This document shows, piece after piece, positions 43,062 through 63,881 of a DNA stretch of 64,000 nt. A program made the position numbers and the translations under genes. Location of the stretch: assembly GCF_007004065.1 (NCBI RefSeq), contig NZ_VFSV01000002.1:1-64000 (forward strand), read 5' to 3'. The stretch's first letter is position 1; each line of letters opens with the position of its first letter. A model generated the notes under the pieces. The model saw nothing but the letters and a program-made list of their open reading frames with translations, did not search any database and was not told the DNA's origin. The stretch comes from Palleronia caenipelagi (lineage in GTDB: Bacteria > Pseudomonadota > Alphaproteobacteria > Rhodobacterales > Rhodobacteraceae).

Positions 43062-43940
43062 TCAAATCAGCATATTGCGCGGATCGGCGATCAACCTCGT
43101 GTAATGGGTCATGAACCGCGCGGCATCGGCGCCGTTGATCACCCGGTGATCGTAGCTGAGATCCAGCGGCACCATGGGCACCGGGCGCGGCGTGTCGCCC
43201 TCCCAGACAGTGACCGTCTCGGTGCGGGTGATGCCAAGGATCGCCACTTCGGGCGGGTTAACGATGGGGGTAAAGGCACTACCCCCGAGACCGCCGAGAT
43301 TGGTGATGGTCATGGACGCGCCGCCCATCTCATCCGGCCCGACCTTTCTGGCCTGCGCGCGACCTGCCAGATCGGCGATTTCGCCCGCAATCTGCCAGAG
43401 CCCCTTGCGATCCGCATCGCGGATCACCGGAACCATGAGCCCGTGGGGTGTGTCGACGGCGATGCCAATATGGACGTAGTCCTTCAGCACCAGCGTCTCC
43501 CCATCCGGGGTCAGGGATGCGTTAAAGCGGGAGAAAGCCCGCAAACACCGCGCCAATGCCGCCACGTGGAAGGCCAGCGCGGTCAACTTCGCGCCACGTG
43601 CCTGTGCCTCGGGCTTCAGCGCCTTGCGAAACGCCTCGATGGCCGAGACATCCGCCCGGTCGTGATGGGTCACGGCGGGGATCAGGCTCTGGGCCGCGGC
43701 GAGGTTCTTTGCGGCGACTTGCGCGAACCGGCTCATGGGTTCCTCGGTCACTGGACCATACTGACTGTGATCTACGTTCCAGTAGCCGGTGTCGCCCGCA
43801 GGACCTGCCGCAGCGGTGGTGGCCCCGAGATCCTCGGCGCCCATGGTGCGGCGGCCCAGTGCGCGGGCCTTTTCACTCAGATCCACACCCTGTTCGAGAG
43901 CGCGGCGGCGGGTGGAGGGGCTGGCGATGACGTCGTTCAT
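43062..43940 (-). CDS. 2-oxo-acid dehydrogenase E2 acyltransferase without lipoyl domain
   Basis: A 292-residue E2. It begins with a peripheral-subunit-binding domain (residues 5-38, IASPSTRRRALEQGVDLSEK) and continues with a full acyltransferase domain (residues 65-292). The catalytic DHRVING is at residues 264-270 (His265), with GLMVPVIRDADRKGLWQIAGEI and ITNLGGLGGSAFTPIVNPPE before it. No lipoyl domain is present, although E2 proteins normally carry one to three at the N-terminus. The lipoyl domains are instead on the separate protein encoded two genes upstream. It is the last gene of the apparent eight-gene operon, 10 bases after the aldehyde dehydrogenase. The start at 43940 opens the binding domain. 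Confidence 0.85.
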   Translation of the reverse strand: MNDVIASPSTRRRALEQGVDLSEKARALGRRTMGAEDLGATTAAAGPAGDTGYWNVDHSQYGPVTEEPMSRFAQVAAKNLAAAQSLIPAVTHHDRADVSAIEAFRKALKPEAQARGAKLTALAFHVAALARCLRAFSRFNASLTPDGETLVLKDYVHIGIAVDTPHGLMVPVIRDADRKGLWQIAGEIADLAGRAQARKVGPDEMGGASMTITNLGGLGGSAFTPIVNPPEVAILGITRTETVTVWEGDTPRPVPMVPLDLSYDHRVINGADAARFMTHYTRLIADPRNMLI

Positions 43941-43950
43941 GATCGCCCCC

Positions 43951-45375
43951 TTACCACTCAGCCGAGATGTACTGGGTTTCCATGAATTCAAGCATCCCTT
44001 CATGTCCCCCTTCACGGCCGAGACCAGACTGTTTCACCCCGCCAAAGGGGGCGGCCGGGTCGCTGACCAGACCTCGGTTCAGGCCGACCATCCCGTATTC
44101 CAGACGCTCGCAGACTTGCAGCGCGCGCTTGAAATCCTCGGAGAAGACATAGGCCACCAGCCCGTATTCGGTGTCATTAGCGCGGGCGATGACGTCTTCC
44201 TGATCGGTGAAGGTCTGGATCGCGGCCACCGGGCCGAAGATCTCGTCCCGCACGCATTCCGCGTCCTCAGACACGTTGGAGAGAACCGTCGGCGGGTAGT
44301 AAAAGCCTTTGCCCTCCGGTGCCTCGCCACCGCACTCGACCTTGGCGCCCTTGGCCACGGCGTCGGCGACGAACTCGGCCACCTTGTCGCGGGTGTCCGC
44401 ATTGACCAGCGGCCCCACATCGACCGAAGGATCGGTGCCATCCCCGACCTTCAGGGCGGACATGGCCTCGGTCAGGCGGCGGGTGAACTCGTCAGCCACG
44501 GCCTCATGGACATAGATCCGGTTGGCGGCAGTGCAGGCCTCGCCGAGATTGCGCATCTTCGCCAGCATGGTGCCCTCGATGGCCTTATCCATGTCAGCAT
44601 CGTCAAAGATGATGCAGGGCGCGTTGCCGCCCAGTTCCATGGCGGGCTTCAGCACCTGATCGGCAGCGGAGTGCAGCAGTTTCCGCCCCACCCCGGTCGA
44701 GCCGGTAAAGCTGATCACCCGCACGCGCGGATCATGCAGCATGTGGTCCACCAGCGCACCGGTCCGGCGCGAGGGCAGCACATTGACCAGCCCCTTGGGC
44801 ACACCTGCCTCTTCGAGGAGCGGCATCAGGGCCAGCATGGTCAGCGGCGTCTCGGAGGCGGGCTTGATGATCACGCCACACCCGGCGGCCAGAGCCGGCG
44901 CGATTTTGCGCGTGCCCATGGCGGCGGGGTAGTTCCAAGGGGTGACCAGCACGGCGAGGCCCGCCGGCTTATGCTGCACCACGATCCGGGCTCCGGAGGC
45001 CGGGGCGTGGGTGATCAGCCCGTCGGCGCGCACGGCTTCTTCGGCGAACCAGCGGAAGAACTCGGCGGCATAGGTGGCCTCGCCCATGGCGTCGGCGCGG
45101 GCCTTGCCGTTCTCCAGCGTGATGAGATGGGCAAAGTGATCGAGCCGCGCGGTCATGAGTTCCCACGCCTTGCGCAGGATCTCGGAGCGGGCGCGCGGCG
45201 TGCGGGAGGCCCAGTCGGCCATGGCGCGCTCGGCGGCGTCCAGCGCCGCGTCAGCATCGGCGATGTCAGCAGACGCGACGGAGGCCAGCACCTCTTCGGT
45301 GGCCGGGTTCAGCACGTCGAAGCGCTCTGCCGTCTGGCGCCATTCGCCGTCGATATAGAGGTCGGTATGTTCCAT
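43951..45375 (-). CDS. aldehyde dehydrogenase, succinate-semialdehyde-dehydrogenase-like
   Basis: A 474-residue NAD(P)-dependent aldehyde dehydrogenase. The N-terminal YIDGEWRQTAERFDVLNPATEE and the oxyanion Asn in VTPWNYPAAMGTRKIAPALA are typical. The general base Glu is in MELGGNAPCIIFDDAD, and the nucleophile Cys is in LGEACTAANRIYV. It looks most like the GabD/SSADH group, but substrate assignment in this superfamily is unreliable. It lies between the lipoyl protein and the E2 core in the operon, so it probably oxidises an aldehyde made earlier in the same pathway. Confidence 0.85.
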   Translation of the reverse strand: MEHTDLYIDGEWRQTAERFDVLNPATEEVLASVASADIADADAALDAAERAMADWASRTPRARSEILRKAWELMTARLDHFAHLITLENGKARADAMGEATYAAEFFRWFAEEAVRADGLITHAPASGARIVVQHKPAGLAVLVTPWNYPAAMGTRKIAPALAAGCGVIIKPASETPLTMLALMPLLEEAGVPKGLVNVLPSRRTGALVDHMLHDPRVRVISFTGSTGVGRKLLHSAADQVLKPAMELGGNAPCIIFDDADMDKAIEGTMLAKMRNLGEACTAANRIYVHEAVADEFTRRLTEAMSALKVGDGTDPSVDVGPLVNADTRDKVAEFVADAVAKGAKVECGGEAPEGKGFYYPPTVLSNVSEDAECVRDEIFGPVAAIQTFTDQEDVIARANDTEYGLVAYVFSEDFKRALQVCERLEYGMVGLNRGLVSDPAAPFGGVKQSGLGREGGHEGMLEFMETQYISAEW

Positions 45376-45390
45376 GAGCGGTGCCTTTTG

Positions 45391-46674
45391 TCAGAGCAGA
45401 TGGCGGAGCGGTTGCTCCATCCGACCTGCGAAATTGGAGAGAAGCGCGATGGCCTCGGCGGCGCTGAGCTGGCCCGCGCCACATTCGAGCGTCAGCCCGA
45501 TGCCCGCGCCCTCGGCGGTCAGGGTCAGGACCGGCGCATCTTCGGCGCCCATCTCGATTCCGGTGATCCCCGTGCCCCGCAGATCGCGCAGGATGAGCGC
45601 CGGGGCATCCTCGGTCTCAGCCACCTGCGACAGGGCCGGGCCGGTGACAGCGTAGCTGCGCGCAGTGCCGAAACGCTCGACTGCGACAGCAGACCCGTCA
45701 CGACCGAGGCTCACCCCGGCGAGACCCGCCAGGAGCGCATCCGCGTCGGTCAGCCCGTGTGTGCCCGCAGCCCAGTCGGCAAACCCGGCAAAGCCATCGG
45801 TTGCACAGTGCGCGGTCAGGCGACGGGTTGCGGGGCCTGCGCCTGCCGCAGCCGCCGGGGTGGCGGCAGGGAGGGAGCGGAGGACGTCCAGATCGGCGAC
45901 ATGGTAGGGCTGGGGATGACCCCCCTCTACGAGCCGGTTCAGGTCGAGACCCTGTTCCATCGCCAGACGCCGCGCCTTGGGCGAGGCAAGGATGCGTCCG
46001 CCCGGAGCGATCGGCGCCGCAGTGGCTTGCCGGGGCGCGACGGCCTCCTTCGCCGGAGCGTCGGGCACCGCGGCTGGCGCCGGGGCCGAGGCAGGAGCGG
46101 CGTCCTTCACCGACAGGGAAACCGGGTTGGCCGGAGCGCTGTCGGAGAGGATCGCGACCGGGTCGCCCACGGGCACATCTTCGCCCGCCTGCGCCAGCGT
46201 CGCCGCGAGGTAGCCCGCACGACCTGCGGGAACTTCCATAGTGGCCTTGTCGGTCTCGACCTCGAAGAGCGGATCTTCGGCGCCGACCTCGGCGCCCGGC
46301 TCCACCAGCCAGCCGACGATCCGCCCGGCATCCTGTGCCATGCCGAGCTGCGGCATGGTCACAGGGGTGCCTTCAGGCAAATCGTTCCCGGCCTCAGGGG
46401 CCGCGGTCGTAGCAGGCGCTGCGGCTGGTTCCTCGGCGGTCTCGGAGATCTGCGCGATGGCCTGACCCACGGGCACGTCATCGCCAGCCGCCGCTGTCAC
46501 GCCGGTCAGGAAACCCGCCGCCTGCGCCTCGACCTCCATGGTGGCCTTGTCGGTTTCCACCTCAAAGAGCGCGTCCCCCTTGGCTACCGCATCGCCCGGC
46601 GACTTCAGCCACGAGACGATCCGTCCCGTGTCCTGAGCCATGCCGAGCTGGGGCATCGTCACCTCATGCGGCAT
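45391..46674 (-). CDS. double lipoyl-domain protein with degenerate acyltransferase-like C-terminus
   Basis: A 427-residue protein. Two lipoyl domains cover residues 1-78 and 103-178, each with the lipoylation motif VETDKATMEV (Lys43 and Lys143). Ala/Pro-rich linkers separate them from a peripheral-subunit-binding domain at about 226-265 (RILASPKARRLAMEQGLDL). The last 145 residues (SYAVTGPALSQVAE, then LLSNFAGRMEQPLRHLL) resemble the end of an E2 catalytic domain, but the DHRxxxG active site and the substrate-binding N-terminal half are missing. It looks like a structural, lipoyl-bearing partner, comparable in layout to the E3-binding protein of mitochondria. The start overlaps the end of the E1 beta gene by 11 bases. 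Confidence 0.85.
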   Translation of the reverse strand: MPHEVTMPQLGMAQDTGRIVSWLKSPGDAVAKGDALFEVETDKATMEVEAQAAGFLTGVTAAAGDDVPVGQAIAQISETAEEPAAAPATTAAPEAGNDLPEGTPVTMPQLGMAQDAGRIVGWLVEPGAEVGAEDPLFEVETDKATMEVPAGRAGYLAATLAQAGEDVPVGDPVAILSDSAPANPVSLSVKDAAPASAPAPAAVPDAPAKEAVAPRQATAAPIAPGGRILASPKARRLAMEQGLDLNRLVEGGHPQPYHVADLDVLRSLPAATPAAAAGAGPATRRLTAHCATDGFAGFADWAAGTHGLTDADALLAGLAGVSLGRDGSAVAVERFGTARSYAVTGPALSQVAETEDAPALILRDLRGTGITGIEMGAEDAPVLTLTAEGAGIGLTLECGAGQLSAAEAIALLSNFAGRMEQPLRHLL

Positions 46675-47659
46675 GGATCATCTCCCCGCCGCACAGCTTG
46701 CGCGCCGCCGCGGCGACGCTCTCGGGCGTCGGCACGGTCAGATCCTCCAGCGCGGGCGAGAACGGCACCGGCACATCCATCGCGCCCATCCGCAGAACCG
46801 GCGCGTCCAGATGGTAGAACGCCTTTTCATTCAGGCGGCTGGCGATCTCGGAGGTCACGCCAAAGCTCTGGTGGCCCTCGTCGATGACAATGGCGCGCGA
46901 GGTCTTCTTGACGCTCTCGATCAGGGTGGCCTCATCGAGCGGCACGATCGTGCGCGGATCGATCACCTCGGCACTGATGCCCTCGGCGGCGAGAATCTCA
47001 GCGGCTTTCTCGGCCACCTGCACCATGGACGACGTGCCGATCAGCGTGATGTCGGACCCCGTCCGTTTGACATTCGCCTCGCCGAAGGGGATCAGATACT
47101 CCTCCTCGGGGACCGGCGCCTTATCCTGATACATCAGCTTGTCTTCGAAGATCACCACCGGGTTGTTGTCCCGAATGGCGGTCTTCATCAGCCCCTTCGC
47201 CTCATAGGCCGACGATGGCAGGGCGACCTTCAGCCCCGGGATATGAGCCACAAGCGCCTGAAGCGACTGGGAATGCTGCGCCGCGGAGCGCCGCGTGGCG
47301 CCCAGATTGGTGCGCAGAACCAGCGGCACGGTGAGCTTGCCGCCCGACATGTAGTGGGTCTTGGCCGCCTGATTGCAAAGCTGGTCCATGATCAGGAAGA
47401 TGAAATCGCCGAACATCAGATCGACGATGGGTCGCGCGCCAGTCATCGCAGCACCGACCGCCATGCCCATAAAGCCGGGCTCAGCGATGGGAGTGTCGAT
47501 GACGCGCTCGGTGCCGAATTCCTCGACCAGGCCGCTGAGCACCTTGAAGGGCGTCCCGGCCTCGGCCACGTCTTCGCCCATGATAAATGTCGTCGGGTCC
47601 CGGCGCATTTCCTCGGCCAGCGCTTCGTTCACGGCCTGGGACAGGGTAATCTCTCGCAT
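46664..47659 (-). CDS. 2-oxo-acid (acetoin-type) dehydrogenase E1 beta subunit
   Basis: A 331-residue E1 beta subunit: MREITLSQAVNEALAEEMRR, then FIMGEDVAEAG, then DTPIAEPGFMGMAVGAAMTG with the Glu that activates thiamine diphosphate, then HSQSLQALVAHIPGLKVALP. With E1 alpha it forms the alpha2beta2 thiamine-dependent decarboxylase. Similarity is closest to the acetoin/pyruvate type rather than to the branched-chain type, but the substrate is not fixed by sequence. It is 10 bases after E1 alpha. The start at 47659 is the family start; the longer frame to 47770 lies in the E1 alpha gene. Confidence 0.9.
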   Translation of the reverse strand: MREITLSQAVNEALAEEMRRDPTTFIMGEDVAEAGTPFKVLSGLVEEFGTERVIDTPIAEPGFMGMAVGAAMTGARPIVDLMFGDFIFLIMDQLCNQAAKTHYMSGGKLTVPLVLRTNLGATRRSAAQHSQSLQALVAHIPGLKVALPSSAYEAKGLMKTAIRDNNPVVIFEDKLMYQDKAPVPEEEYLIPFGEANVKRTGSDITLIGTSSMVQVAEKAAEILAAEGISAEVIDPRTIVPLDEATLIESVKKTSRAIVIDEGHQSFGVTSEIASRLNEKAFYHLDAPVLRMGAMDVPVPFSPALEDLTVPTPESVAAAARKLCGGEMIHAA

Positions 47660-47669
47660 GTCTCTCTCC

Positions 47670-48647
47670 TCAGTCCGCGTAAACGTGCATGTCGACCTCG
47701 GACGGGTCGGGATAGGGGGCGTCGAGCGCATAGGCCACGGCGTCAGACGCGTCCTTTTCGATCTCGGCATTGATCGCGTCGATCTCTTCCTCGGTGGCGA
47801 TGCCTTCGCTCACCAGATGGGCGCGGAAGCGGATGATCGGGTCCCGGTTTTCCTTCCAGTCCTTCTCTTCGTCCTTCGAGCGGTAATATTCCCGGTTGAT
47901 ATCGCCCACATGGTGCCCGTGATAGCGATAGGTCATCAGCTCGATAAAGAACGGCCCCTCACCTTTGCGCGCCCGGTCCACGAGCCGCTCGGTCAGCGCG
48001 TTGACGGCAAGCACATCCTGCCCGTCCACCTGATACGCCTCGATGCCAAAAGCCTCGGCCCGCGCGGTAATCGAACCAGCGGCGATTTCCTCGGTCTTGG
48101 TGTACTCGGAATAACCGTTATTTTCGCAGGCATAGATGACCGGCAGGTTCCAGAGCGCGGCCATGTTCATGACCTCGTAGAGCAGCCCCTGCGCCGTCGC
48201 GCCGTCGCCAAAAAAGCACACGGTCACATCGTTCGATCCGAGCAGCTTCGCCCGCAGAGCGGAGCCAGTCGCAATGCCCATCGAACCGCCGACAATGGCG
48301 TTGGCACCCAGATTGCCATGGCTCTGATCGGCGATATGCATCGAGCCGCCTTTGCCCCGGCAATAGCCTTCTTCTTTTCCCAAAAGCTCACAGAACATCT
48401 CTTTGAACTCAGCACCCTTGGCCACGCAGTGCCCATGGCCCCGATGGGTCGAGGTGATGCGATCATCGTCGGTGAGCGCTTCGCAGATGCCCACCGCAAC
48501 GGCCTCTTCACCGGAATACATGTGGGTCAGCCCCGGCATTTTCGCCGAGAGGTATAGCTGGTTCGCATTGTCCTCAAAGGTGCGGATTCGCACCATCTGC
48601 CGGTACATGCGCAGGTAGTCTTCGGTATTGTGCTTGGCCTCGGCCAT
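47670..48647 (-). CDS. 2-oxo-acid (acetoin-type) dehydrogenase E1 alpha subunit
   Basis: A 325-residue E1 alpha subunit. The opening MVRIRTFEDNANQLYLSAKM and the block ITSTHRGHGHCVAKGAEFKE are typical of the acetoin/TPP-dependent type. The thiamine-diphosphate motif runs from GDGATAQG to CENNGYSEY. It decarboxylates a 2-oxo acid or cleaves a hydroxyketone and passes the acyl or aldehyde unit to the lipoyl protein. No E3 (dihydrolipoamide dehydrogenase) gene is in the window, so the complex must borrow it. It follows the M24-fold gene after an 87-base gap that contains GC-rich stem-loops. Confidence 0.9.
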   Translation of the reverse strand: MAEAKHNTEDYLRMYRQMVRIRTFEDNANQLYLSAKMPGLTHMYSGEEAVAVGICEALTDDDRITSTHRGHGHCVAKGAEFKEMFCELLGKEEGYCRGKGGSMHIADQSHGNLGANAIVGGSMGIATGSALRAKLLGSNDVTVCFFGDGATAQGLLYEVMNMAALWNLPVIYACENNGYSEYTKTEEIAAGSITARAEAFGIEAYQVDGQDVLAVNALTERLVDRARKGEGPFFIELMTYRYHGHHVGDINREYYRSKDEEKDWKENRDPIIRFRAHLVSEGIATEEEIDAINAEIEKDASDAVAYALDAPYPDPSEVDMHVYAD

Positions 48648-48734
48648 GACGATCCCCCGTCGAAAGGGGCGCCTTGCCCCTTTCTTTGTGTCTGAAAATA
48701 CCCCCGCCGGAGGCGCGCCGCCGGCGGGCGGCGC

Positions 48735-50033
48735 TCAGTAGCGGTTGGCGATGGGCAGTTCTTCGGCCGGGAACAGCGAGATCACCTCGCAGCCCGTCTC
48801 CGTCACCACGACTTCTTCCTCGATCCGAGCGGCCGAGTAGCCGTCGGTGGCGGGGCAATAGGTCTCCAGCGCAAACACCATGCCCGTCTTGATCTCCATC
48901 GGGTGATCGAGACTGATCGCGCGGCTGATGATCGGACGCTCATGCAGCGCCAGACCCAGACCGTGACCGAATTGCAGACCAAACGCCGCATCTTCGTTCG
49001 GGAAGCCCAGCGATTCCGCCGTCGGCCAGACCTCGGCCACCTTGTCGGTGGTCACGCCCGGCTTGATCATCGCAATGGAGGCGTCGATCCATTCCCGCGC
49101 CTTCACATAGGCGTCGTTCTGTGACGGTGTCGCGCGACCCACGTTGAACGTGCGGTAGTAGCAGGTCCGGTAGCCCTGATAGCTTTGCAGAATGTCAAAG
49201 AACGCCTGATCGCCCGGGCGGATCAGTCGGTCAGTGAAGTTGTGCGGGTGCGGGTTGCAGCGCTCGCCCGAGATCGCGTTGATCGCCTCAACGTCATCCG
49301 AGCCCATCTCGTAGAGCATCTTGTTCGACAGGGCGACGATGTCGTTCTCGCGGACGCCCGGCTTCAGCTCTTCGTAGATCATGTGGTAGACGCCATCGAC
49401 CATCGACGCCGCTTGCGTCAGGAGCTGGATCTCGTCCCAGTTCTTGATCTCGCGCGCCGCCAGCATGATCTGCTGGCCGTCGACCACATTGATGCCCTCT
49501 TCCTTGAGCGCGTGGAACATCGCGGTCTCAGCATAGTCCACGCCGACCGGCATATTCGCCATGCCCGCATCCTTGATGAGCTGGGCAATCATCTTGGCGT
49601 ATTTCTGCATCAGGCCGAAATCCGGTGGAATGGTCCCGCGCATACCGACGACACCGGCAAGGCAGTGATCGGGTTCCAGCCAGTCGGAATGACGCTTGTG
49701 ATGCACGGCAGCGGAGCCGAAGTCCCAGACATACGGGCTGTCATCGCCGGTCAGCAGACAGAAGCGGCACATCTTGTCCCGTTCCCATTCGCCGATCTTG
49801 GTGGCTGTCACGTAGCGGATGTTGTTCACATCGAACAACAGCAGCGAACCGGCTTGCGAGTTCTGCAGCGACTGACGGGTCCGGGCCAGGCGATAGCGAC
49901 GCAGGCGATCGTGGTCGATGCGGCGCTCGAAATCCACCGAGGTATGGCCCCAGGCCGGGAGGCGCTCGCGCCATTCCCAATTGGGTTCAAGATCCTGGGG
50001 CGTAAGCATATTCGGCATAAGTGCGCGAGACAT
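48735..50033 (-). CDS. M24-fold (pita-bread) protein with an incomplete metal site
   Basis: A 432-residue protein of the M24 family (creatinase/aminopeptidase P/DddP fold). An N-terminal creatinase-type domain covers residues 40-190 (RYRLARTRQSL, LLLFDVNNIRYVT). The catalytic domain shows Asp280 (FFDILQSYQGYRT), His357 (QFGHGLGLALHERP), Glu390 (MVFALETYCP) and Glu405 (ARIEEEVVV). Where the second conserved metal-binding Asp should stand, 11 residues after Asp280, there is Cys291 (TCYYRTF). The usual two-metal peptidase chemistry is therefore doubtful. Creatinase is metal-free and DddP is a DMSP lyase, so a non-peptidase role is likely. Its place between an SDR and E1 alpha suggests a step in the same catabolic route. 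Confidence 0.8.
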   Translation of the reverse strand: MSRALMPNMLTPQDLEPNWEWRERLPAWGHTSVDFERRIDHDRLRRYRLARTRQSLQNSQAGSLLLFDVNNIRYVTATKIGEWERDKMCRFCLLTGDDSPYVWDFGSAAVHHKRHSDWLEPDHCLAGVVGMRGTIPPDFGLMQKYAKMIAQLIKDAGMANMPVGVDYAETAMFHALKEEGINVVDGQQIMLAAREIKNWDEIQLLTQAASMVDGVYHMIYEELKPGVRENDIVALSNKMLYEMGSDDVEAINAISGERCNPHPHNFTDRLIRPGDQAFFDILQSYQGYRTCYYRTFNVGRATPSQNDAYVKAREWIDASIAMIKPGVTTDKVAEVWPTAESLGFPNEDAAFGLQFGHGLGLALHERPIISRAISLDHPMEIKTGMVFALETYCPATDGYSAARIEEEVVVTETGCEVISLFPAEELPIANRY

Positions 50034-50097
50034 GGCGTTCTCCTTCGGGTGCGGTCTCGCGCACCCGTTTCTTGTTTAAAGTGAATTGGTTAGGGGG

Positions 50098-50904
50098 TTA
50101 CTGGATGCACCAGCCCCCATCGATATGGATCATCTGGCCGGTCATGTAGTCGCTGTCGGACGAGGCCAGGAAGGCAGCGGTGCCCTTCACGTCATCGGGA
50201 TAGGAGACGCGCTTGATTTGCAGGGCGTCGCGCACGATGTCGTCATAGGCCTGACCTTCGCGGTCCTTAAAGCCAATCTCCACGAGATCCTTGTCGAGCT
50301 GCTCCCACAACGGCGTCACCACCACGCCGGGGGCGTAGCCGTTTACGGTGATCCCGTGCTCCGCGAGGCCGATGGCACCGCAATGGGTCAGGGCCAGACA
50401 GCCATATTTCGACGTGCAATAGACCGTCACATCGACCAGCGGCTTGCGCGAGGCGATGGAGCCCACATTGATCAGCTTGTAGGGATAGTCGCGCTTGCCC
50501 TGCGCGATCATCTGCTTCGCCGTCTCCTGCATCCCAAGCCACATGGCCTTGGTGTTGACGTTCATGATCATGTCCCAGTTGTCTTCATCAATATCCATGA
50601 AGAACCGGGGCTTGTTCAGACCGGCATTGAACAGACCAACATTGATCTCGCCAAACGCTTCAACCACGGCGGCAACGGCATTGGCGTTGTCTTCGCGCTT
50701 GGTCACGTCCATCTTGACGGCGATGGCCTTGCCGTTCCCGGCGGCGTTGATCTTGTCGGCCATTTCCTGCGCGGCGTCGAGATCAAGATCCCCGAGGCAC
50801 ACATTCGCGCCCTGCTCGGCGAAATGCTCGGCATTGGCCGCACCCATTCCGCGCGCCGCTCCTGTGATCAGGATGTTCTTTCCTTTGAGACGTTCAGTGT
50901 CCAT
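50098..50904 (-). CDS. SDR-family oxidoreductase
   Basis: A 268-residue classical SDR: ITGAARGMGAANAEHFAEQG (glycine motif), DLDLDA (an acidic residue after strand 2, favouring NAD over NADP), the FNAG variant of NNAG, and the catalytic Ser and Tyr-Lys in VGSIASRKPL and YCTSKYG. The C-terminal HIDGGWCIQ is usual. It probably oxidises an alcohol in the pathway of this operon. It starts 10 bases after the fusion regulator and is followed, 64 bases on, by the M24-fold gene. Confidence 0.87.
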   Translation of the reverse strand: MDTERLKGKNILITGAARGMGAANAEHFAEQGANVCLGDLDLDAAQEMADKINAAGNGKAIAVKMDVTKREDNANAVAAVVEAFGEINVGLFNAGLNKPRFFMDIDEDNWDMIMNVNTKAMWLGMQETAKQMIAQGKRDYPYKLINVGSIASRKPLVDVTVYCTSKYGCLALTHCGAIGLAEHGITVNGYAPGVVVTPLWEQLDKDLVEIGFKDREGQAYDDIVRDALQIKRVSYPDDVKGTAAFLASSDSDYMTGQMIHIDGGWCIQ

Positions 50905-50914
50905 GTTGTCCTCC

Positions 50915-52696
50915 CTATGGTTGTTTGAGGGCTATCTCTGCCCGGGCCTGAACCCGCGCCAGAGCGTCACGCGGCGACGTGATGCCGCGCAGCATATCGT
51001 GAAGTTCTTCGCCGCAAGCCTGAATGATCTCGGTGATCCCAGGCACCGGCGGCCGGGGCCAGAACTGCAGCTCGTCGCGCCAGGACATTCCGTCCACCGC
51101 TTCAAAGATCGGGCTAAGCGCCCGAACTTCGGGGTCGGCACCGACCGAATAACGAGGCTGGCTACGCGATCCGGCGGTGACCACCTGCTTCTGCGCCGCG
51201 GCTGAGGTAAAGGAGATCAACGCTTCGGCGGCGGCCTTTCGGCGTTCGGGCGCGATATTCGCGGGAATGCCCAACAAGTAGCCGCCCACGGGCGCAACCG
51301 GCGGCGCCCCGGCCCCTGAGGGATGGGGCAAGTAGCCAGTGTTGTCCCGCGCGGGCGAGCCCGGGTCGGCCTCAAAGTACGGCGCCAGCAATGTGTAGCC
51401 ATAAGCCATGGCAACCGTGCCAGCCGCATAGGGTCGGACGCGCTCATACCAGCTCATCGACAGGATGTCTGGCGGGGAATAGCGCATCAGCTCCAACAGA
51501 TATTCAGCAGCCATAAGGGCGTGGGGCTGATCGAACATCGGCCGCATATCCCGGCCCGCGAGGCTCATGGCCTCAAATCCGCCAGCGATTTTCGGCAGGT
51601 CCAGAACCGGCTGTCCGAAACCCGCGCAGGCCATCATAAACTGATGCCCGAGCGCCGTGCCGCGCGCTGCATTCCACGCGATCCCGTAGCGGCCCCGGGT
51701 GGGCTTATGAAATTCTTTCGCCGCCGCCAGAACCGCTTCAGTCGTTGCAGGCGGCTCCAGCCCGGCCTCAGCGAACAGATCCTTGCGATAAAACAAGAGC
51801 TCCGGCGTCGTTTGGTTCGGCACGCCATACGGGCGACCATCCCAGTGCGCGGCCTGCCAGCCAGCGGTGTGGAAATCGGATGGGTCAAGACGTTCGATAT
51901 CCATCACTTCGTCGAGCGGGGTCAGGACGCCTTGGGTCGCAAATTCACCGATCCACGGCAGATCCACGGCAATGATATCGTAGCGCGAAGTCCGGCGCGC
52001 CGCATCGCGCAGGGTTTCCGCCCGGAGACGGTCGATGGAGAACGCGCGCTGGTGGATGGAACACCCGATGATCTGCTCGAACTGGCGCTTGAGATGCGAC
52101 ATCGCCAGGAAGGTCGGATCGCCATGCACGAGAACCTTCAACCCGCCTGCGAGCTTCAACGGCTGCGGCAGCGGGCGGACCTGACCGATCACCTGGCTGG
52201 TGCGGTAGGAGCCGCCGAAGTAATAGTCGCCATCATCAGGCGCATGGCTGAGCGTTTCCGCCGCAAGCCGGGGAAGCCGGTCCGCCAGCTGCTGAATACT
52301 GTCCATCAACCGCGCAGACGGATGCAGGGTAAAGCTCTTGCCTGTCCGGGTCTTTGCCCGCTGTTCAATGAGTTCGTCGCCAATCAGTTCTGCCAGACGC
52401 CGGTTCGCCGTGGCGTATGGCACGCCCGAGGCCGCGATGGCAGACGAGGCGGTAATCATACGGCCTTCCAGATGACCTCGCACCACATGACATAGCATTT
52501 TTAGGTGCGGCGATGGCGCGGGACGCTCGATGAGGCCATCCACTTCGTCGCCCACTGCTGTCAGGAAATCAATAGCATGGGACACCCGATCAGACGCCGT
52601 ACCGGCGCGAAGCGCCGGGCTGATCTTGTCCGAGAGAGTATCCTTTGGCATGGGGGGCACAGCAATCTTCGATTTGGACATTTCAAGACGGCTCAT
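50915..52696 (-). CDS. winged-helix/solute-binding-protein fusion, probable transcription regulator
   Basis: A 593-residue protein with no signal peptide. After a 60-residue lead it has a winged-helix region at about residues 64-130 (LKMLCHVVRGHLEGRMITAS, then VPYATANRRLAELIGDELI, then KTRTGKSFTLHP). From residue 185 to the end it is an extracellular-solute-binding-protein fold of the type 1 (MalE-like) group: LKVLVHGDPTFLAM, YDIIAVDLPWIGEFATQGVLTPLDEV (as blocks), PNQTTPELLFYRKDLFAEAGLEPP, and VAPVGGYLLGIP. A binding-protein fold without an export signal, fused to a DNA-binding domain, points to a cytoplasmic ligand sensor that controls the flanking genes. The start has AGGGAGG upstream. A perfect inverted repeat lies 50-90 bases before it. 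Confidence 0.82.
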   Translation of the reverse strand: MSRLEMSKSKIAVPPMPKDTLSDKISPALRAGTASDRVSHAIDFLTAVGDEVDGLIERPAPSPHLKMLCHVVRGHLEGRMITASSAIAASGVPYATANRRLAELIGDELIEQRAKTRTGKSFTLHPSARLMDSIQQLADRLPRLAAETLSHAPDDGDYYFGGSYRTSQVIGQVRPLPQPLKLAGGLKVLVHGDPTFLAMSHLKRQFEQIIGCSIHQRAFSIDRLRAETLRDAARRTSRYDIIAVDLPWIGEFATQGVLTPLDEVMDIERLDPSDFHTAGWQAAHWDGRPYGVPNQTTPELLFYRKDLFAEAGLEPPATTEAVLAAAKEFHKPTRGRYGIAWNAARGTALGHQFMMACAGFGQPVLDLPKIAGGFEAMSLAGRDMRPMFDQPHALMAAEYLLELMRYSPPDILSMSWYERVRPYAAGTVAMAYGYTLLAPYFEADPGSPARDNTGYLPHPSGAGAPPVAPVGGYLLGIPANIAPERRKAAAEALISFTSAAAQKQVVTAGSRSQPRYSVGADPEVRALSPIFEAVDGMSWRDELQFWPRPPVPGITEIIQACGEELHDMLRGITSPRDALARVQARAEIALKQP

Positions 52697-52746
52697 CGAC
52701 CGACCTCCCTAAATTGGACAAGATGAAGACTGAGTCACAGCGAGCA

Positions 52747-52786
52747 GTTATCCATTTTGAAACCATAAAGTGTCAAAATGGATAAA
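52747..52786. promoter_or_regulatory. inverted repeat over two back-to-back promoter-like sequences
   Basis: TTATCCATTTTGA (52748-52760), twelve bases, TCAAAATGGATAA (52773-52785): a perfect 13-bp inverted repeat. On the plus strand TTGAAA (52757) and GATAAA (52781) are spaced by 18. On the minus strand TTGACA and GATAAC are spaced by 18, with their positions mirrored. A protein bound here could control both the transporter and the fusion-regulator operon. Confidence 0.7.
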
Positions 52787-52892
52787 ATTCGGAGAGAAGC
52801 TGGCGATACCGGGGCGCATGGTCTGCCTTGTCAACCACGCAACCTCAGACCAACGCGTGGTGCCATCAATATATCTTGGGAGGATATCCAAA

Positions 52893-53849
52893 ATGAAAAC
52901 AACGATCGCAACCCTGGCCGCCACCACCCTGCTGACCGGCATGGCCTTTGCCGGCGAGCACGGCGGCAAAATGACCATCGGCATCACCCAGAACAATGTT
53001 GGCGTGGACAGCTACCAGACGACCTACGAAAAAGCCTTTATCGCGGCTGCCGAAGCCAACGAGATGGTTGAGGCCGTGGTTCTGGATGCCGGCGGCGACG
53101 TGGCCCGTCAGATCGCCCAGATGGAAGACCTGATCCAGCAGGAAGTCGACGCCATCATCATCTGGCCGACCAATGGCGAAGCCGTGATCCCCGCCGTCCG
53201 CAAGGCCAAGCAGGCCGACATTCCGGTCATCGTCACCAACTCCAATATCGCCGAGCAAGGCGCTGAGTTCGTGGCGTCTTTCTCCGGCCCGGACAACATC
53301 ACCCAAGGTTCCCGCTCCGCCGAAATCATGTGTGACAAGTTCAAAGAGATGGGCATCGACGGCGAAGCGCAGGTCGTCCACATCACGGGCCAGCCCGGCT
53401 ACACCACCGCCATCGAGCGCGCCAAGGGCTTCGAAGACCGTCTGCCCGAAGTCTGCCCGGACGTGACCGTGATCGACACCCAGCCCGGCGACTGGAACCG
53501 TGAAAAGTCCCAGAAGGTCATGGAAGCGTTCCTCGTCAAGTATGACGACATCGACGGCGTTTACGCCGGTGACGATAACATGGGCGTGGGCGCGCTGAAC
53601 GCCGCCAAGGCCGCCGGTCGCGAGGGCATCATCTTTGTCGGCGCCACGAACTTTGCCGTCGGCTACGAGGCCATGGAGCGTGGCGAGTACTGGGGATCCA
53701 TCTACCAGTCGCCCGTCGATGACGCCGAGGCCGCGCTGCAGACCGCCATCGACGTGCTTGAGGGCAAGGACGTTCCGGCGCTGAACTACTTCGACACGCC
53801 GAAGATCACCCAGGACAACATGGGTGATTTCACCAAGCCGGTCTTCTGA
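52893..53849 (+). CDS. sugar-type ABC transporter substrate-binding protein
   Basis: A 318-residue periplasmic binding protein of the RbsB type (Peripla_BP_4). The signal peptide TTIATLAATTLLTGMAFAG is followed by KMTIGITQNNVGVDSYQTTY. The hinge and ligand blocks include IIIWPTNGEAVIPAVRKAKQ, IPVIVTNSN, and the late VYAGDDNMGVGALNAAKAAG. Members bind sugars, polyols or autoinducer-like molecules; the ligand here is unknown. The start at 52893 has GGGAGGAT upstream. It is the first gene of the plus-strand transporter unit, and a hairpin after it would favour extra binding protein. Confidence 0.9.
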   Translation: MKTTIATLAATTLLTGMAFAGEHGGKMTIGITQNNVGVDSYQTTYEKAFIAAAEANEMVEAVVLDAGGDVARQIAQMEDLIQQEVDAIIIWPTNGEAVIPAVRKAKQADIPVIVTNSNIAEQGAEFVASFSGPDNITQGSRSAEIMCDKFKEMGIDGEAQVVHITGQPGYTTAIERAKGFEDRLPEVCPDVTVIDTQPGDWNREKSQKVMEAFLVKYDDIDGVYAGDDNMGVGALNAAKAAGREGIIFVGATNFAVGYEAMERGEYWGSIYQSPVDDAEAALQTAIDVLEGKDVPALNYFDTPKITQDNMGDFTKPVF

Positions 53850-53861
53850 TCCGACCTTAAA

Positions 53862-53894
53862 GGGGTCGGGCGCATTGTGCCCGACCCCGTTTTT
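53862..53894 (+). terminator. hairpin terminator after the binding-protein gene
   Basis: GGGGTCGGGC pairs exactly with GCCCGACCCC and is followed by GTTTTT. It lies between the binding-protein gene and the first permease. Partial termination here would explain higher binding-protein levels. Confidence 0.85.
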
Positions 53895-54000
53895 CTGACC
53901 AGTGGACGGCCCGGAACGTTTGCGACCGGACCGTCCTCTGCTCAGACAGATTTCCATCGGGCATGACCCGCTATTTCACGACCGGGGGAGGTGACAGACC

Positions 54001-54975
54001 ATGTCAGGTCTGACGAAACAGAATATCGGCAGCTTTCTGGCGCGACAGGGGATCCTTGTCGCTTTTGCGCTGTTCATGATTGGCTTTACGCTGGCCAACG
54101 GCCGCTTTCTGGACCCCGACAACGTCATGGGCGTGGTGCGGTCTTCGGCGATCCTCGGGGTGATGGCGCTGGGGGTCACATTCGTGGTCATCAGCGGCAA
54201 TCTGGACCTGTCCGTTGGCTCGATGATGTCGTTCTCGACCATCGTTGTGCTGGACTTGCATGACAAGATCGGACCGACCCTTGCCATTCCCGCAATGTTC
54301 GCCCTGACACTCTGCCTCGGAGCGCTGATCGGGTTTTTGGTGGGCTATCTGAAGCTCAACTCACTCATCGTCACTCTTGGTATGCTCTCTGCGATCCATG
54401 GCCTGACGCTGACGTGGTCCGGCGGCAAGAATATGGACATTGCGGACAAGGAGGCCACCTGGTTCGGCATCTTCGGCCAAGGGGAGATCATCGGTATCCC
54501 GGTGCCCATCCTGATTTTTGCGCTGCTGGCATCGGTGCTGGGCCTCATCCTCGCCAAGACGCCCTTTGGCAGGAAGGTCTACGCGGTCGGCGGCAACGGC
54601 ACCGCGGCGACCTTCTCGGGCATTCGCCGGGCACGGGTCGTGTTCAGCTGCTATCTGATGTCATCTTTTTGCGTCGCCACGGCCGGGCTCATTCAGGCCA
54701 GCCGCTCCATGGGATCGCAGAATACGGTCGGACAGGGGCTGGAACTGGAGGTGCTTGCGGCGGTCATCCTCGGGGGCGCATCCTTGCTGGGCGGATCCGG
54801 CACGATCTTCAAAACCGTAATCGGCGTGCTGATCCTCGGCTTCATCCAGAACGGCCTCCTGCTTGTCGGTCTGCAATTCTACGTCCAGTATGTTGTGACC
54901 TGGGTCATCATCATCCTTGCAGTCTGGCTCGATATCGCAGCCAAGCGCGGCAAGCTCTGGTCCCCGATCGCCTGA
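54001..54975 (+). CDS. sugar-type ABC transporter permease 1
   Basis: A 324-residue RbsC-type permease (BPD_transp_2) with about eight or more membrane segments. The motif GVTFVVISGNLDLSVGSMMS is typical, followed by LNSLIVTLGMLSAIHGLTLTW and the late VLAAVILGGASLLGGSGT. It pairs with the second permease to form the membrane channel. GGGGAGG precedes the start. It ends 12 bases before the second permease. Confidence 0.9.
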   Translation: MSGLTKQNIGSFLARQGILVAFALFMIGFTLANGRFLDPDNVMGVVRSSAILGVMALGVTFVVISGNLDLSVGSMMSFSTIVVLDLHDKIGPTLAIPAMFALTLCLGALIGFLVGYLKLNSLIVTLGMLSAIHGLTLTWSGGKNMDIADKEATWFGIFGQGEIIGIPVPILIFALLASVLGLILAKTPFGRKVYAVGGNGTAATFSGIRRARVVFSCYLMSSFCVATAGLIQASRSMGSQNTVGQGLELEVLAAVILGGASLLGGSGTIFKTVIGVLILGFIQNGLLLVGLQFYVQYVVTWVIIILAVWLDIAAKRGKLWSPIA

Positions 54976-54987
54976 GGAGAAGAGATC

Positions 54988-55989
54988 ATGAAACCCGGAA
55001 CACTCTCCACCTTTCTCAAGCGCGGCGCCATCTGGGGCTTTATCGCGCTGGAGCTGATCTTCTTCACCGTCGCAGGTGAGTTCCTCAGCGTCAGTGACAA
55101 GGCGTTCATGGACGTCGACAACATGCTCCTGCTGTTCAAACAGTCTGCTCCCATCGGGATCATCGCCATGGGCATGACGATCATCATGGTGAACGGCAAT
55201 ATCGACCTGAGCGTCGGCGCGATCTACGCGTTCTGTGCGGTGATCCTGCTGGACAGCATGACCTGGCCCATCTTTGCCGGGCTCGGCGATGCGGTCATCC
55301 CGGTGTCGTGGATCCTCGCGCTGGCCGTGGGTACGGCGCTCGGCGCGCTGAACGGGCTGATCGTCTGGAAAACCGGCGTGGATGCCTTCATCGTGACGCT
55401 GGGCTCCATGCTGGGTTATCGCGGCCTCGTCTTCATGTATAATGGCGAGCAGCCGACCAGCCACCTGAACTGGACCCTCGTGGATTTCGCCGAACAGCAG
55501 TTTCTGGGCCTGCACACGGCCACGTGGTTCCTGCTGATCGTCACCGCTGTAATCTGGTTCCTGATGAACCGCACCGTCCATGGCCGCAACGCCTACGCCA
55601 TCGGGGACAACCGGGCGGCGGCGGTGAACGCGGGCATCCGGGTCGGGCCGCATATGATGGTCAACTTCATGATTATCGGTTTTCTCGCGGCCCTGTCGGC
55701 GGTGGTGTTCTATTCCGAGAGTGGCTCGGTGAACCCCAATGACGGGGAGCTCTACGAGCTTTGGGTGATCACCGCCGTCGTGCTGGGCGGCACGAAGCTG
55801 ACCGGGGGCGCAGGCTCGATCATCTCGACCTTCGGCGGCGTGCTGGCGATCCAGCTCCTGCGCAAAGGGCTGGCCCATATCGGCGCGGACACCGAAACGG
55901 TCAATCTGGTGATCGGTCTCATTCTGATCGCGGTGCTGTTCCTCGACCGGCAGCTGAACCTCAAGGGCAAAGAGGAGTTGAAGGTATGA
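54988..55989 (+). CDS. sugar-type ABC transporter permease 2
   Basis: A 333-residue RbsC-type permease, paralogous to the first: IGIIAMGMTIIMVNGNIDLSVGAIYA, then AFIVTLGSMLGYRGLVFMYN, then VVLGGTKLTGGAGSIISTFGG. The presence of two different permeases instead of a homodimer is common in the xylose- and polyol-type subgroup. Its stop overlaps the ATPase start (ATGA). Confidence 0.9.
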   Translation: MKPGTLSTFLKRGAIWGFIALELIFFTVAGEFLSVSDKAFMDVDNMLLLFKQSAPIGIIAMGMTIIMVNGNIDLSVGAIYAFCAVILLDSMTWPIFAGLGDAVIPVSWILALAVGTALGALNGLIVWKTGVDAFIVTLGSMLGYRGLVFMYNGEQPTSHLNWTLVDFAEQQFLGLHTATWFLLIVTAVIWFLMNRTVHGRNAYAIGDNRAAAVNAGIRVGPHMMVNFMIIGFLAALSAVVFYSESGSVNPNDGELYELWVITAVVLGGTKLTGGAGSIISTFGGVLAIQLLRKGLAHIGADTETVNLVIGLILIAVLFLDRQLNLKGKEELKV

Positions 55990-57497
55990 CCGAACAAACC
56001 CCGGTTCTCCGCCTCGAAAACATCGTCAAGACCTTCCCCGGTGTGCGGGCTCTTGACGGGGTGTCTTTCACCGTCCTGCCCGGCGAAGTTCACGCCCTGA
56101 TGGGCGAGAATGGTGCAGGCAAATCCACTCTGATGAACGTTCTGGGCGGGATCTACCAACCCGACGAAGGCCAGATCATCGTCAGCGAGCAGCCTGCCGT
56201 GATGACCTCCCCGCTTGAGGCCAAGGCCCGAGGCATCATGTTCATCCATCAGGAGCTCAGCCTCGCCGAAGAGCTGTCCGTGGCCGAGAATGTCTATCTG
56301 GGCGAGTTGCCGAAAAAGCGGTTCGGCCTCGTGGACTGGGACACGCTCTACGCCCGGACGGATGCAATTCTGGAGCGGTTGAAGGTTGGCTTCGATGCCC
56401 GGACCCGCGTGGGGGATCTGTCCATCGCCAACCAGCAGATGGTCGAGATCGCCCGTGCCCTGACCGTGGACGCCAAGGCGGTGATCTTCGACGAACCAAC
56501 CGCGTCGCTGACAGATGCGGAGAAGGTGGTGCTGTTCGAGGTGATCGCCGATCTGCAACGCGACGGGGTCGGGATTATCTACATCTCCCACCGGATGGAG
56601 GAGATTTTCAAGATCACCGACCGCATCAGCGTTCTGCGCGACGGCAGTTATCGTGGCACGCTCCACACCCGTGACACCGACGAAGAAGCCGTTACCCAAC
56701 TGATGATCGGGCGGAAACTCGACCTCAGCCGCAGCGAATCGACCCATGAATTGGGCGACGTGGCGCTGGAGGTGCGGGGGCTGTCTTGCGGACACCTGTT
56801 CGAAGATGTGAGCTTTCACGTGCGGCGCGGCGAAGTGCTGGGGTTCTACGGGCTCGTGGGTGCGGGCCGGACGGAGATCGCCGAGACGCTCTTTGGCCTG
56901 CGCGATCCATCGGCGGGGACGATCCTGCTCGACGGACAGGAAATCCGCATTCACTCCCCGGTGGACGCCATCGAGCGGGGCATTTCGCTGGTTCCCGAAG
57001 ATCGCAAGGGACAGGGACTTGTCCTGGGCATGAACTGCCGGGACAACATGACCTTACCTCAGGTGAGTGATCTGACCGCCGGGCCGTTCGTCAGCGACGG
57101 GGCGGAGGTGGCGATCTTTGACCAGTATCGGGACAAGCTCGACATCCGCACGCCCGGTTGGCGGCAGCTTGTGGGCAACCTGTCAGGCGGCAACCAGCAA
57201 AAGATTGTCATCGGCAAATGGCTCTCCATGCACCCGAATGTGCTGATCGTGGATGAGCCGACGCGGGGGATCGATGTGGGCTCGAAATCCGAGATCCACA
57301 ACCTGATCCGCGAGCTGGCCGCGCAGGGCTATGCGGTGATCGTGATCTCCTCCGAGATGCCCGAGGTGCTGCGGGTCAGTGATCGGATAGTCGCCATGTA
57401 TTCCGGCCGGGTTATGCGGACCTTCACCTCTGATGACGTGACCGAAGACAACCTCATCCAGGCGATTTCCGGCCTCGGAGACGGCGCCGCCGCCTGA
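55986..57497 (+). CDS. sugar-type ABC transporter double ATP-binding protein
   Basis: A 503-residue RbsA-type protein with two ABC domains. The first (residues 1-245) has Walker A GENGAGKSTLMNVLGG, a variant signature near IANQQMVEIARAL and Walker B VIFDEPTASLTD. The second (residues 250-500) has a degenerate Walker A, GLVGAGRTEIAETL, but an intact signature LSGGNQQKIVIGKW and Walker B LIVDEPTRGIDVG. This asymmetry is normal for the family. It powers import with the two permeases. It is the last gene of the transporter unit. Confidence 0.92.
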   Translation: MTEQTPVLRLENIVKTFPGVRALDGVSFTVLPGEVHALMGENGAGKSTLMNVLGGIYQPDEGQIIVSEQPAVMTSPLEAKARGIMFIHQELSLAEELSVAENVYLGELPKKRFGLVDWDTLYARTDAILERLKVGFDARTRVGDLSIANQQMVEIARALTVDAKAVIFDEPTASLTDAEKVVLFEVIADLQRDGVGIIYISHRMEEIFKITDRISVLRDGSYRGTLHTRDTDEEAVTQLMIGRKLDLSRSESTHELGDVALEVRGLSCGHLFEDVSFHVRRGEVLGFYGLVGAGRTEIAETLFGLRDPSAGTILLDGQEIRIHSPVDAIERGISLVPEDRKGQGLVLGMNCRDNMTLPQVSDLTAGPFVSDGAEVAIFDQYRDKLDIRTPGWRQLVGNLSGGNQQKIVIGKWLSMHPNVLIVDEPTRGIDVGSKSEIHNLIRELAAQGYAVIVISSEMPEVLRVSDRIVAMYSGRVMRTFTSDDVTEDNLIQAISGLGDGAAA

Positions 57498-57540: not shown

Positions 57541-57644
57541 CTGCGCGTTCATAGTCTTCTTTCCAGGGTATAACGACCTCCGCACCTCCGCCATTGCGAT
57601 TGGACCGGTGTCGTAGACGAGGGGGCCGCAGAGCGGGTCCCGGC

Positions 57645-57658
57645 TTGACGTTCGTCAA
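57645..57658 (+). promoter_or_regulatory. FNR/Dnr-type box upstream of nosR
   Basis: TTGAC, four bases, GTCAA: a perfect palindrome with the Crp/FNR-superfamily pattern used by anaerobic and nitric-oxide-responsive regulators. Its centre lies about 41 bases before the nosR start. It is the likely activator site for the nos operon. Confidence 0.8.
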
Positions 57659-57692
57659 GGTCACGCTCCGGGAGCACGACCATGTTCGAGAC

Positions 57693-61755: not shown

Positions 61756-61758
61756 GCG

Positions 61759-62988: not shown

Positions 62989-63881
62989 GCCTTGTTCTGA
63001 TCTGTGACAGCCTGATGAAACGCCGCGACCGGGTGCCAGTGTTGCAGGACGTCTCGCTGGCCATTCCCGAAGGCGCGCGGGTGGCGCTGCTTGGCCATAA
63101 CGGTGCGGGCAAATCGACACTCATCAAGCTGATCCTCGGTCTGACACCTCTCGACAGCGGCACAATCTCGATCCTCGGCGCCCGACAAGGCTCGGATGCT
63201 GCGCGGCAGGCTGTGGCGCATCTGCCCGAGGCGGTCGCCTTTCAAGGGGCGCTGACGGGCCGGGAGACGCTGCGCTATTTCGCAGGGCTCGCCGGTGAGG
63301 ACCCCCGCCAGATCGGTCACCTTCTGGACCGTGTCGGTCTGGCCGAGGCCGCGGACCGACGGATCGCCACCTACTCCAAGGGTATGCGCCAGAGGCTGGG
63401 GCTCGCGCAGGTGCTCTTGCGACGACCCCGGCTGGCGCTGTTGGATGAGCCCACCAGCGGGCTCGATCCGATCTCCCGCCACGACCTCTACGCCATCATC
63501 GATGAGCTTGCCGCCGGGGGTACTGCCGTTCTGATCGCCAGCCACGCCCTGACTGAACTCGAAGCCCGCACCGACCGCATCGCTATCCTGTCGAAGGGCC
63601 GCCTGGTCGCCGATGACACCCTGTCCGCTCTGAGCCATCAGGCCGGGCTGCCCACCCGGATGCGGGTCCGGGCGAGCGGCAGCGATGGCGCCGACTTCAT
63701 TGCCCGCAGCACCGGAGGCGCGCGGATCAACGGCGCCTCTGTCGAGATCACCTGTCCGCCGGGGGCCAAGATGGCCACCCTGCGCACGCTCTCGGGCCTC
63801 GGGCCGCAGGTCAGCGACATTGATGTCGTGCCGCCGGGCCTTGAAGATCTGTACCGCCATTACTCGGGGGACCTGTCATGA
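62985..63881 (+). CDS. nosF: NosF, ABC ATPase of the copper-site maturation complex
   Basis: A 298-residue ABC ATPase. Walker A is GHNGAGKSTLIKLILG, the Q-loop lies in AHLPEAVAFQG, the signature is YSKGMRQRLGLAQ and Walker B is LALLDEPTSGLDP. With NosY (the permease) it powers maturation of the NosZ copper site. It overlaps nosD by four bases and nosY by four bases. Confidence 0.93.
   Translation: MSLVLICDSLMKRRDRVPVLQDVSLAIPEGARVALLGHNGAGKSTLIKLILGLTPLDSGTISILGARQGSDAARQAVAHLPEAVAFQGALTGRETLRYFAGLAGEDPRQIGHLLDRVGLAEAADRRIATYSKGMRQRLGLAQVLLRRPRLALLDEPTSGLDPISRHDLYAIIDELAAGGTAVLIASHALTELEARTDRIAILSKGRLVADDTLSALSHQAGLPTRMRVRASGSDGADFIARSTGGARINGASVEITCPPGAKMATLRTLSGLGPQVSDIDVVPPGLEDLYRHYSGDLS

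Follow-up and report, generated by a model that had tools for sequence, protein, structure and literature searches.

SgrR, the glucose-phosphate stress regulator of E. coli, consists of a DNA-binding head joined to a cytoplasmic solute-binding-protein (SBP) domain, which Pfam assigns to the family SBP_bac_5. LacI is built from an RbsB-like (type I) domain and the LacI HTH. MarR proteins are small and bind their ligand within the winged-helix dimer; winged-helix modules of this type are mostly repressors, and where helices flank the winged helix it usually forms dimers and recognises palindromes. The MalE fold closes on its ligand. PMC7786190 describes SgrR as an activator of sgrS that represses itself, and reports that a small molecule activates it by binding at the C-terminus. 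More generally, PMC9602780 points out that Pfam profiles for SBPs pick up cytosolic proteins and the sensor domains of transcriptional regulators as well, and by that remark the kind of regulator described here is already known.

Comparison with described regulators

The regulator gene (50915..52696, minus strand) lies in the window, the 64,000-nucleotide stretch of Palleronia caenipelagi DNA that was analysed, and encodes a protein of 593 amino acids to which the open reading frame, Pfam and AlphaFold2 analyses assign a winged helix and a MalE-type solute-binding domain. The putative regulator would work like SgrR and LacI and is a member of neither. The SgrR order of DNA-binding head and cytoplasmic SBP domain is also predicted for the window protein, but both of its halves belong to other families: SgrR_N (PF12793) has no match in the window protein at E<=1 and none in its own genome at E<=0.001, in a search that did match an E. 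coli control, and SBP_bac_5 is absent from the window protein at E<=1, with SBP_bac_1 and SBP_bac_8 matched instead. Membership of the SgrR family is ruled out on these grounds. With the LacI/GalR regulators it has in common the pairing of a DNA-binding head with a periplasmic-binding-protein-like sensor and the location beside sugar transporters; it differs from them in having a MalE-like domain and a winged helix, and neither the LacI HTH nor a Peripla_BP sensor is matched in it by Pfam at E<=1. The predicted winged helix with flanking helices recalls the MarR family (MepR, MarR), although the window protein is not stand-alone, having a MalE-type domain of 410 amino acids attached, and its N-terminal stretch falls under the Pfam cut-off for MarR_2 (E 0.15, 12.7 bits against a cut-off of 27). 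The sensor fold, with SBP_bac_1 above its cut-off, is that of the CUT1 sugar-binding proteins (5iai and the trehalose/maltose-binding proteins), whereas the window protein has no recognisable signal sequence and is fused to a putative DNA-binding domain.

Domain architecture

Genome contigs were scanned for relatives of the protein, giving 354 candidates, and the best 80 of the 354 were kept and compared as orthologous loci. Alignments A2 and A3 hold 79 rows including the window, with L049 and L057 left out.

With the whole protein as query, Pfam places SBP_bac_1 on residues 238-502 (E 1.4e-25, 91.4 bits against a cut-off of 26), matches SBP_bac_8 as well, and returns no HTH family at E<=1. 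The MalE-type domain spans residues 184-593 (50918..52147, minus strand), and structure alignment matches its model to the SBP 5iai with Z 44.3 and rmsd 2.3 over 395 residues at 26% identity, followed by maltose/trehalose-type binding proteins. Matches of this sensor-domain kind in the window's own genome comprise the protein itself, one family member and three others at 24-31% identity.

The winged helix occupies residues 61-127 (52316..52516, minus strand) by two models, a fold match and Pfam searches with the N-terminal stretches of the 79 aligned family members. MarR_2 is found at E<=1 in 74 of these 79 N-termini (best 2.1e-5), and TrmB, HTH_20 and HTH_IclR in 60, 47 and 44 of them at the same threshold. 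The AlphaFold2 model of the full protein, made from a 79-row alignment (mean pLDDT 81.9), gives the order helix-helix-helix-strand-strand (H63-77, H83-90, H94-106, E110-114, E122-126), with mean pLDDT of 79-94 per 10-residue block across residues 61-130 and long helices at 34-55 and 128-149 on either side. The linker that follows is poorly predicted (pLDDT under 50 at 152-166), and the SBP fold begins at about residue 184. Modelled separately, the N-domain again forms a winged helix (mean pLDDT 84.3), and its best alignments are to MarR-family structures, among them 5fb2 (MepR on DNA) with Z 12.1 and rmsd 2.4 over 113 residues, in a range (Z below about 13) where a match between mostly helical models can mean a common arrangement only.

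The preliminary description had proposed a winged helix at the N-terminus, and both models and the match to MarR-family structures agree with it; the MalE-type domain that it placed behind this head is borne out by the SBP_bac_1 score and by 5iai. On the models, the regulator is predicted to be a MarR-like winged helix joined to a MalE-type solute-binding domain.

Export signal and the adjoining transporter

From the ATG at 52696 the protein has 593 amino acids, in an open frame of 597 amino acids. Only four open codons precede this ATG, so there is no hidden signal ahead of the chosen start. The most hydrophobic 15-mer among the first 70 residues scores 0.94 on the Kyte-Doolittle scale; for the neighbouring RbsB-like protein the corresponding value, over its first 40 residues, is 1.64. 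Neither the upstream frame nor the hydrophobicity reveals a recognisable signal peptide or lipobox in the window protein, in agreement with the original claim that it has no export signal; a cleavable signal upstream of the chosen start was looked for, and the open frame leaves no room for it. We therefore infer from the absence of a recognisable signal that the regulator is cytoplasmic. Among the 79 aligned family members the highest N-terminal 15-mer reaches 1.79, as hydrophobic as that of a signal peptide, in at least one member.

The gene facing the regulator encodes an RbsB-like periplasmic sugar-binding protein (52893..53849, plus strand; Pfam Peripla_BP_4), which is divergent and immediately upstream in 80 of the 80 loci compared (the best 80 of 354), as expected from the earlier statement that the regulator faces a transporter. 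It is followed on the plus strand by ABC permease 1 (54001..54975) and ABC permease 2 (54988..55989), both BPD_transp_2 by Pfam, and by a sugar transporter ATPase with two ABC_tran stretches in the domain scan (55986..57497), each present in 78 of the 80 loci; here and in the counts below, some absences are contig ends and others are different genes in place. A second SDR gene lies on the transporter side in 70 of the 80 loci, between the binding protein and the permease in the orders listed; the window has no room for it there.

By Peripla_BP_4 and BPD_transp_2, this transporter is of the RbsB/CUT2 type; CUT1 permeases (BPD_transp_1) are absent from the adjacent positions, both neighbouring permeases being BPD_transp_2. 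The MalE-type domain is thus not this transporter's own kind of binding protein. This bears on what the database name implies, namely that the protein is an exported or membrane-tethered solute-binding protein of the adjoining transporter. Public records do use the name "extracellular solute-binding protein", and SBP_bac_1 is matched above its cut-off; yet there is no space for a signal before the start, the N-terminus is predicted to be a winged helix, and the transporter owns an RbsB-like binding protein with a signal-like start in addition to its CUT2-type permeases. We give this reading hardly any credence. An exported SBP was rejected as an identity for the protein on the short upstream frame and the low N-terminal hydrophobicity.

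Operator-like palindromes between regulator and transporter

The gap between the two divergent operons holds two tandem operator-like palindromes (52749..52784; TATCCATTTTGAAAC and GTGTCAAAATGGATA on the plus strand), identified from an inverted repeat and a comparison of 81 regions, with starts 21 bp apart. From this pair it is 52 bp to the regulator start on one side and 108 bp to the transporter start on the other, both genes being downstream of the sites. The inverted repeat singled out in the preliminary description is present (16 nt, 94% complementary, within 52747-52786), but to call it two tandem palindromes is more accurate than to call it a single repeat.

A pair with consensus TATCCA-N3-TGGATA and starts 21 bp apart was found in all 81 intergenic regions, the window included. 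The best pair score per region is 16-23 of 24, with the window at the low end (17); in 1620 mononucleotide-shuffled regions the maximum was 16, reached in 9 cases. Averaged over the 81 regions, the best score peaks at 19.8 for a spacing of 21; no other spacing between 15 and 44 exceeds 16.2. These scores belong to a consensus derived from the same 81 regions, and the distant family members discussed below provide the independent test. Strict sites number 87 in the 80 loci (1.6 Mb), 65 of them in the regulator/transporter gap and 22 elsewhere: 13 in E1 alpha, five in permease 1, one in permease 2, one in the lipoyl protein and two outside the compared genes. We take the recurrent in-gene sites as conserved coding sequence.

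Between the palindromes and the regulator start there is also a conserved block (about 52715-52726 in the window) with the consensus tCa..Ttg.aCA over the 81 regions. Counted from the first site, the mean palindrome match rises to 5.3 at offset 55 and to 5.1 at offset 64, over a background of 2.9 (sd 0.5). This might point to a third binding site on the regulator side of the second palindrome, but the raised block does not read as the same palindrome. No sigma-70-like promoter or terminator was found in 52650-52920, by a scan that is uninformative for this organism.

The motif near distant family members

Nineteen loci with distant family members were available; with L114 (whose contig starts 47 bp upstream), L120 and L121 set aside, and two members each in L117 and L118, they gave 18 upstream regions. 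The same core occurs at a shuffle p<=0.01 upstream of seven of these 18 members, which are 36-46% identical to the window protein; of the other 11, four lie at p 0.08-0.12 and seven above 0.5. The genes beside the seven motif-bearing members mostly differ from those in the window, L128 keeping a relative of the M24 enzyme.

Further tests covered 12 gaps of seven hand-chosen loci and seven gaps of four of the 32 plasmid records. In L168 the regulator (42% identical) has E1 genes on one side and, on the other, a different transporter that is 26-34% like the window's, and a double site with 20-bp spacing (p 0.01) is found at the SDR/transporter divergent promoter, with no site directly upstream of the regulator (p 0.62). 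L169 has a double site (21 bp, 0 of 400 shuffles) between regulator and transporter. The motif is present in the close relatives L173 and L174 (p 0.005 and 0.013); the values for L172 (p 0.06 and 0.10) and for the palindrome TATTCA-N3-TGAATA shared by L165-L167 (p 0.07-0.11) are suggestive only. Skermanella carries a site (0 of 500 shuffles) in the gap between transporter and regulator. The Agrobacterium site is just downstream of the regulator (p 0.010), before an isomerase gene leading into a second, CUT1-like transporter, and two other gaps tested there have none. The Sinorhizobium locus has, at a divergent promoter of neighbouring genes, a palindrome in which each arm differs by one base (p 0.12), and no site directly upstream of the regulator.

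The palindromes thus tend to track the family and its likely regulated promoters, as expected of operators of this regulator. Where a palindromic operator adjoins an RbsB-type transporter it is often a LacI site, and on that general ground another regulator, for example of LacI type, might bind the palindromes while the window protein has some other cytoplasmic role. A LacI-type-looking ORF does lie near the cluster in L169 (by eye). Against this, the core recurs with family members whose neighbouring genes differ, and the L169 double site falls between regulator and transporter, whereas the gap between the LacI-like ORF and the SDR gene has none (p 0.88). The regulator itself is present in all 80 clusters compared (the best 80 of 354), in a comparison that covered homologues of the window's genes only and in which another regulator would go unseen; none of the other scanned genes of the window cluster (43062-57497) matches a regulator family. 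We consider binding by another regulator improbable, and favour the window protein as the one that would bind the palindromes.

Distribution and naming of the family

Of 198 genomes from the same bacterial family, 38 contain a match to residues 1-185 of the window protein at E<=0.001; its own genome is among them, and the same search finds a second member of the protein family there. The window protein aligns over its full length with 21 relatives (alignment A1, made of 21 of the 30 loci found plus the window). These 21, with the 80 loci from another collection, indicate that the architecture is not chance. The best 80 of the 354 relatives come mostly from Rhodobacterales-type genera, with Roseibium/Labrenzia/Stappia, Martelella, Hoeflea, Chelativorans, Cucumibacter and others also represented, and the closest among them is from Palleronia sediminis. 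Mean pairwise identity over the 79 aligned proteins is highest in the SBP domain (74%), followed by the winged helix (64%) and the first 33 residues (16%).

At E<=1e-4 the family winged-helix profile matches 42 of 385 genomes across the class and 36 of 398 across the phylum, the majority of these matches being weak and in shorter ORFs; two such ORFs that were read do not have the appearance of an SBP fusion. L170 and L175 hold no family member at E<=1e-8. Full-length relatives do occur at a distance, in L165-L167 (31-33% identical, in alphaproteobacterial genomes of 1.4 Mb and 35-37% GC) and in L169 (50% identical, in a genome of another class of the phylum). Shorter ORFs in L142 and L154 end in a related winged helix that matches the family profile (E 5e-13 and 3e-13, respectively); the L142 ORF starts, by eye, with a receiver-like sequence, so the winged-helix head may be shared between sensor types.

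Among the 30 plasmid relatives listed, out of 32, the record name is "extracellular solute-binding protein" for 24 and "ABC-type sugar transport system, periplasmic component" for one; the other five are unnamed. In L181, plasmid pP92_e of Phaeobacter inhibens, the whole cluster including lpdA is plasmid-borne, and the regulator, WP_254683009.1, is annotated as an extracellular solute-binding protein. The open-licence literature, which leaves most subscription journals outside its scope, yielded no description of this architecture or family, and the available part of PMC4052901 contains nothing on the regulator family. The preliminary description called the architecture unusual, which fits the absence of a description in that literature; as a conserved family, however, it is not a one-off. 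The combination of winged helix and MalE-type domain is an undescribed but conserved, widespread and misnamed family.

Proposed mechanism

Very probably, in our judgement, the protein is a cytoplasmic one-component transcription regulator of this undescribed family that binds both palindromes and senses an imported compound with its MalE fold. The MarR-like module (residues about 34-150), probably dimeric through the flanking helices, would bind the two tandem TATCCA-N3-TGGATA palindromes in the gap that separates the regulator/catabolic operon from the divergent sugar ABC transporter operon, and the 21-bp spacing, two turns, would place two dimers on one face of the helix. In the cytoplasm the MalE-fold domain (184-593) would bind the imported compound or an early breakdown product, and closure of the cleft on this ligand would change the affinity for DNA, so that genes for uptake and breakdown are induced once the compound enters the cell.

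As to sign, we lean, if not strongly, towards a repressor of both operons and of itself that is released by the ligand, because MarR-type heads usually repress. A ligand-dependent activator would differ in sign only, recruiting RNA polymerase at the sites when the MalE-type domain is filled. That MarR-type modules are mostly repressors counts against it; the distances of 52 bp and 108 bp, which run to gene starts and not to transcription starts, are compatible with activation, and SgrR, the best-known winged-helix/SBP regulator, activates sgrS as well as repressing itself (PMC7786190). We regard activation as a possible but less probable alternative to repression.

If the proposal is correct, many proteins that databases call extracellular solute-binding proteins are in fact gene regulators for which an operator is defined, and annotations of both transport and regulation in many Alphaproteobacteria need correction. 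The MalE fold would have been turned into an internal sensor, as the RbsB and SBP_bac_5 folds were. The sensor would also offer a way to find out what a widespread and uncharacterised catabolic cluster acts on. MalE-type domains, whose behaviour is well understood, can also serve as biosensors.

Ligand and catabolic cluster

The solved relatives of the sensor include 5iai, the nearest, whose ligand we take to be ribitol, and 4rya, which is named as sorbitol-binding. The maltose, trehalose or other glycosides bound by further solved neighbours favour no single ligand. For the transporter's own binding protein the nearest structures are several RbsB-type sugar-binding proteins, with 4rs3 and 4rsm nearby, presumably with polyol ligands. 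Since polyol-type relatives appear on both the sensor and the transporter side, the imported compound is perhaps a polyol or cyclitol, which we offer as a lead and not a result.

On the minus strand, the gene next downstream of the regulator encodes an SDR dehydrogenase (50098..50904; Pfam) and is the next gene on the same strand in all 80 loci. The domain scan identifies beyond it an M24 metallohydrolase-fold enzyme (48735..50033; 77 of 80 loci), which is distantly like the DMSP lyase DddP (120.7 bits, the cut-off being 600), the alpha (47670..48647) and beta (46664..47659) subunits of a TPP-dependent dehydrogenase E1, and a two-lipoyl-domain protein with a weak E3-binding match (45391..46674), the last three in 62 loci each. 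A succinate-semialdehyde-DH-like aldehyde dehydrogenase (43951..45375; 61 loci) and a separate E2 acyltransferase catalytic domain (43062..43940; 59 loci) follow. No acyltransferase domain was found in the two-lipoyl protein by the domain scan. The E2 is thus split (43062-46674, minus strand) into a two-lipoyl protein and a separate acyltransferase protein, with the aldehyde dehydrogenase gene between them. Split E2, E1 alpha and beta, SDR and M24 enzyme together look like a CoA-forming catabolic route, hitherto uncharacterised.

Parts of the cluster recur in L165-L167, with SDR at 57-60%, M24 at 66%, E1 alpha at 38-39% and E1 beta at 43-45%, and with an adjoining transporter that is just 22-37% like the window's; the M24 gene accompanies the SDR gene even in these small AT-rich genomes. 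Other surroundings are found too: the distant member in L112 adjoins GMC and Gfo/Idh/MocA oxidoreductases and an RbsB-type transporter, that in L125 an alpha-amylase-family enzyme, a MalF-type permease and an SBP, and that in L165 a xylose-isomerase-like TIM-barrel and a Gfo/Idh/MocA protein. Gfo/Idh/MocA and TIM-barrel genes such as those beside the L165-L167 members are of a kind seen in cyclitol breakdown.

We think it likely, with somewhat less assurance than for the regulator itself, that the window protein is the founding example of an undescribed family of MarR-like winged helix and MalE-type sensor with one operator code (TCCA-N3-TGGA). Besides the Rhodobacterales, Hyphomicrobiales and Rhodospirillales, the family would take in small AT-rich genomes of Alphaproteobacteria and at least one genome from a different class of the phylum, and it would control several uncharacterised polyol/cyclitol pathways, including the CoA-forming route with M24 enzyme and split E2.

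Directly past the transporter in the window lie nitrous oxide reductase genes (57594-63881, plus strand): a NosR-like gene, nosZ (TIGR04244, 1100 bits), nosD and an ABC ATPase gene.
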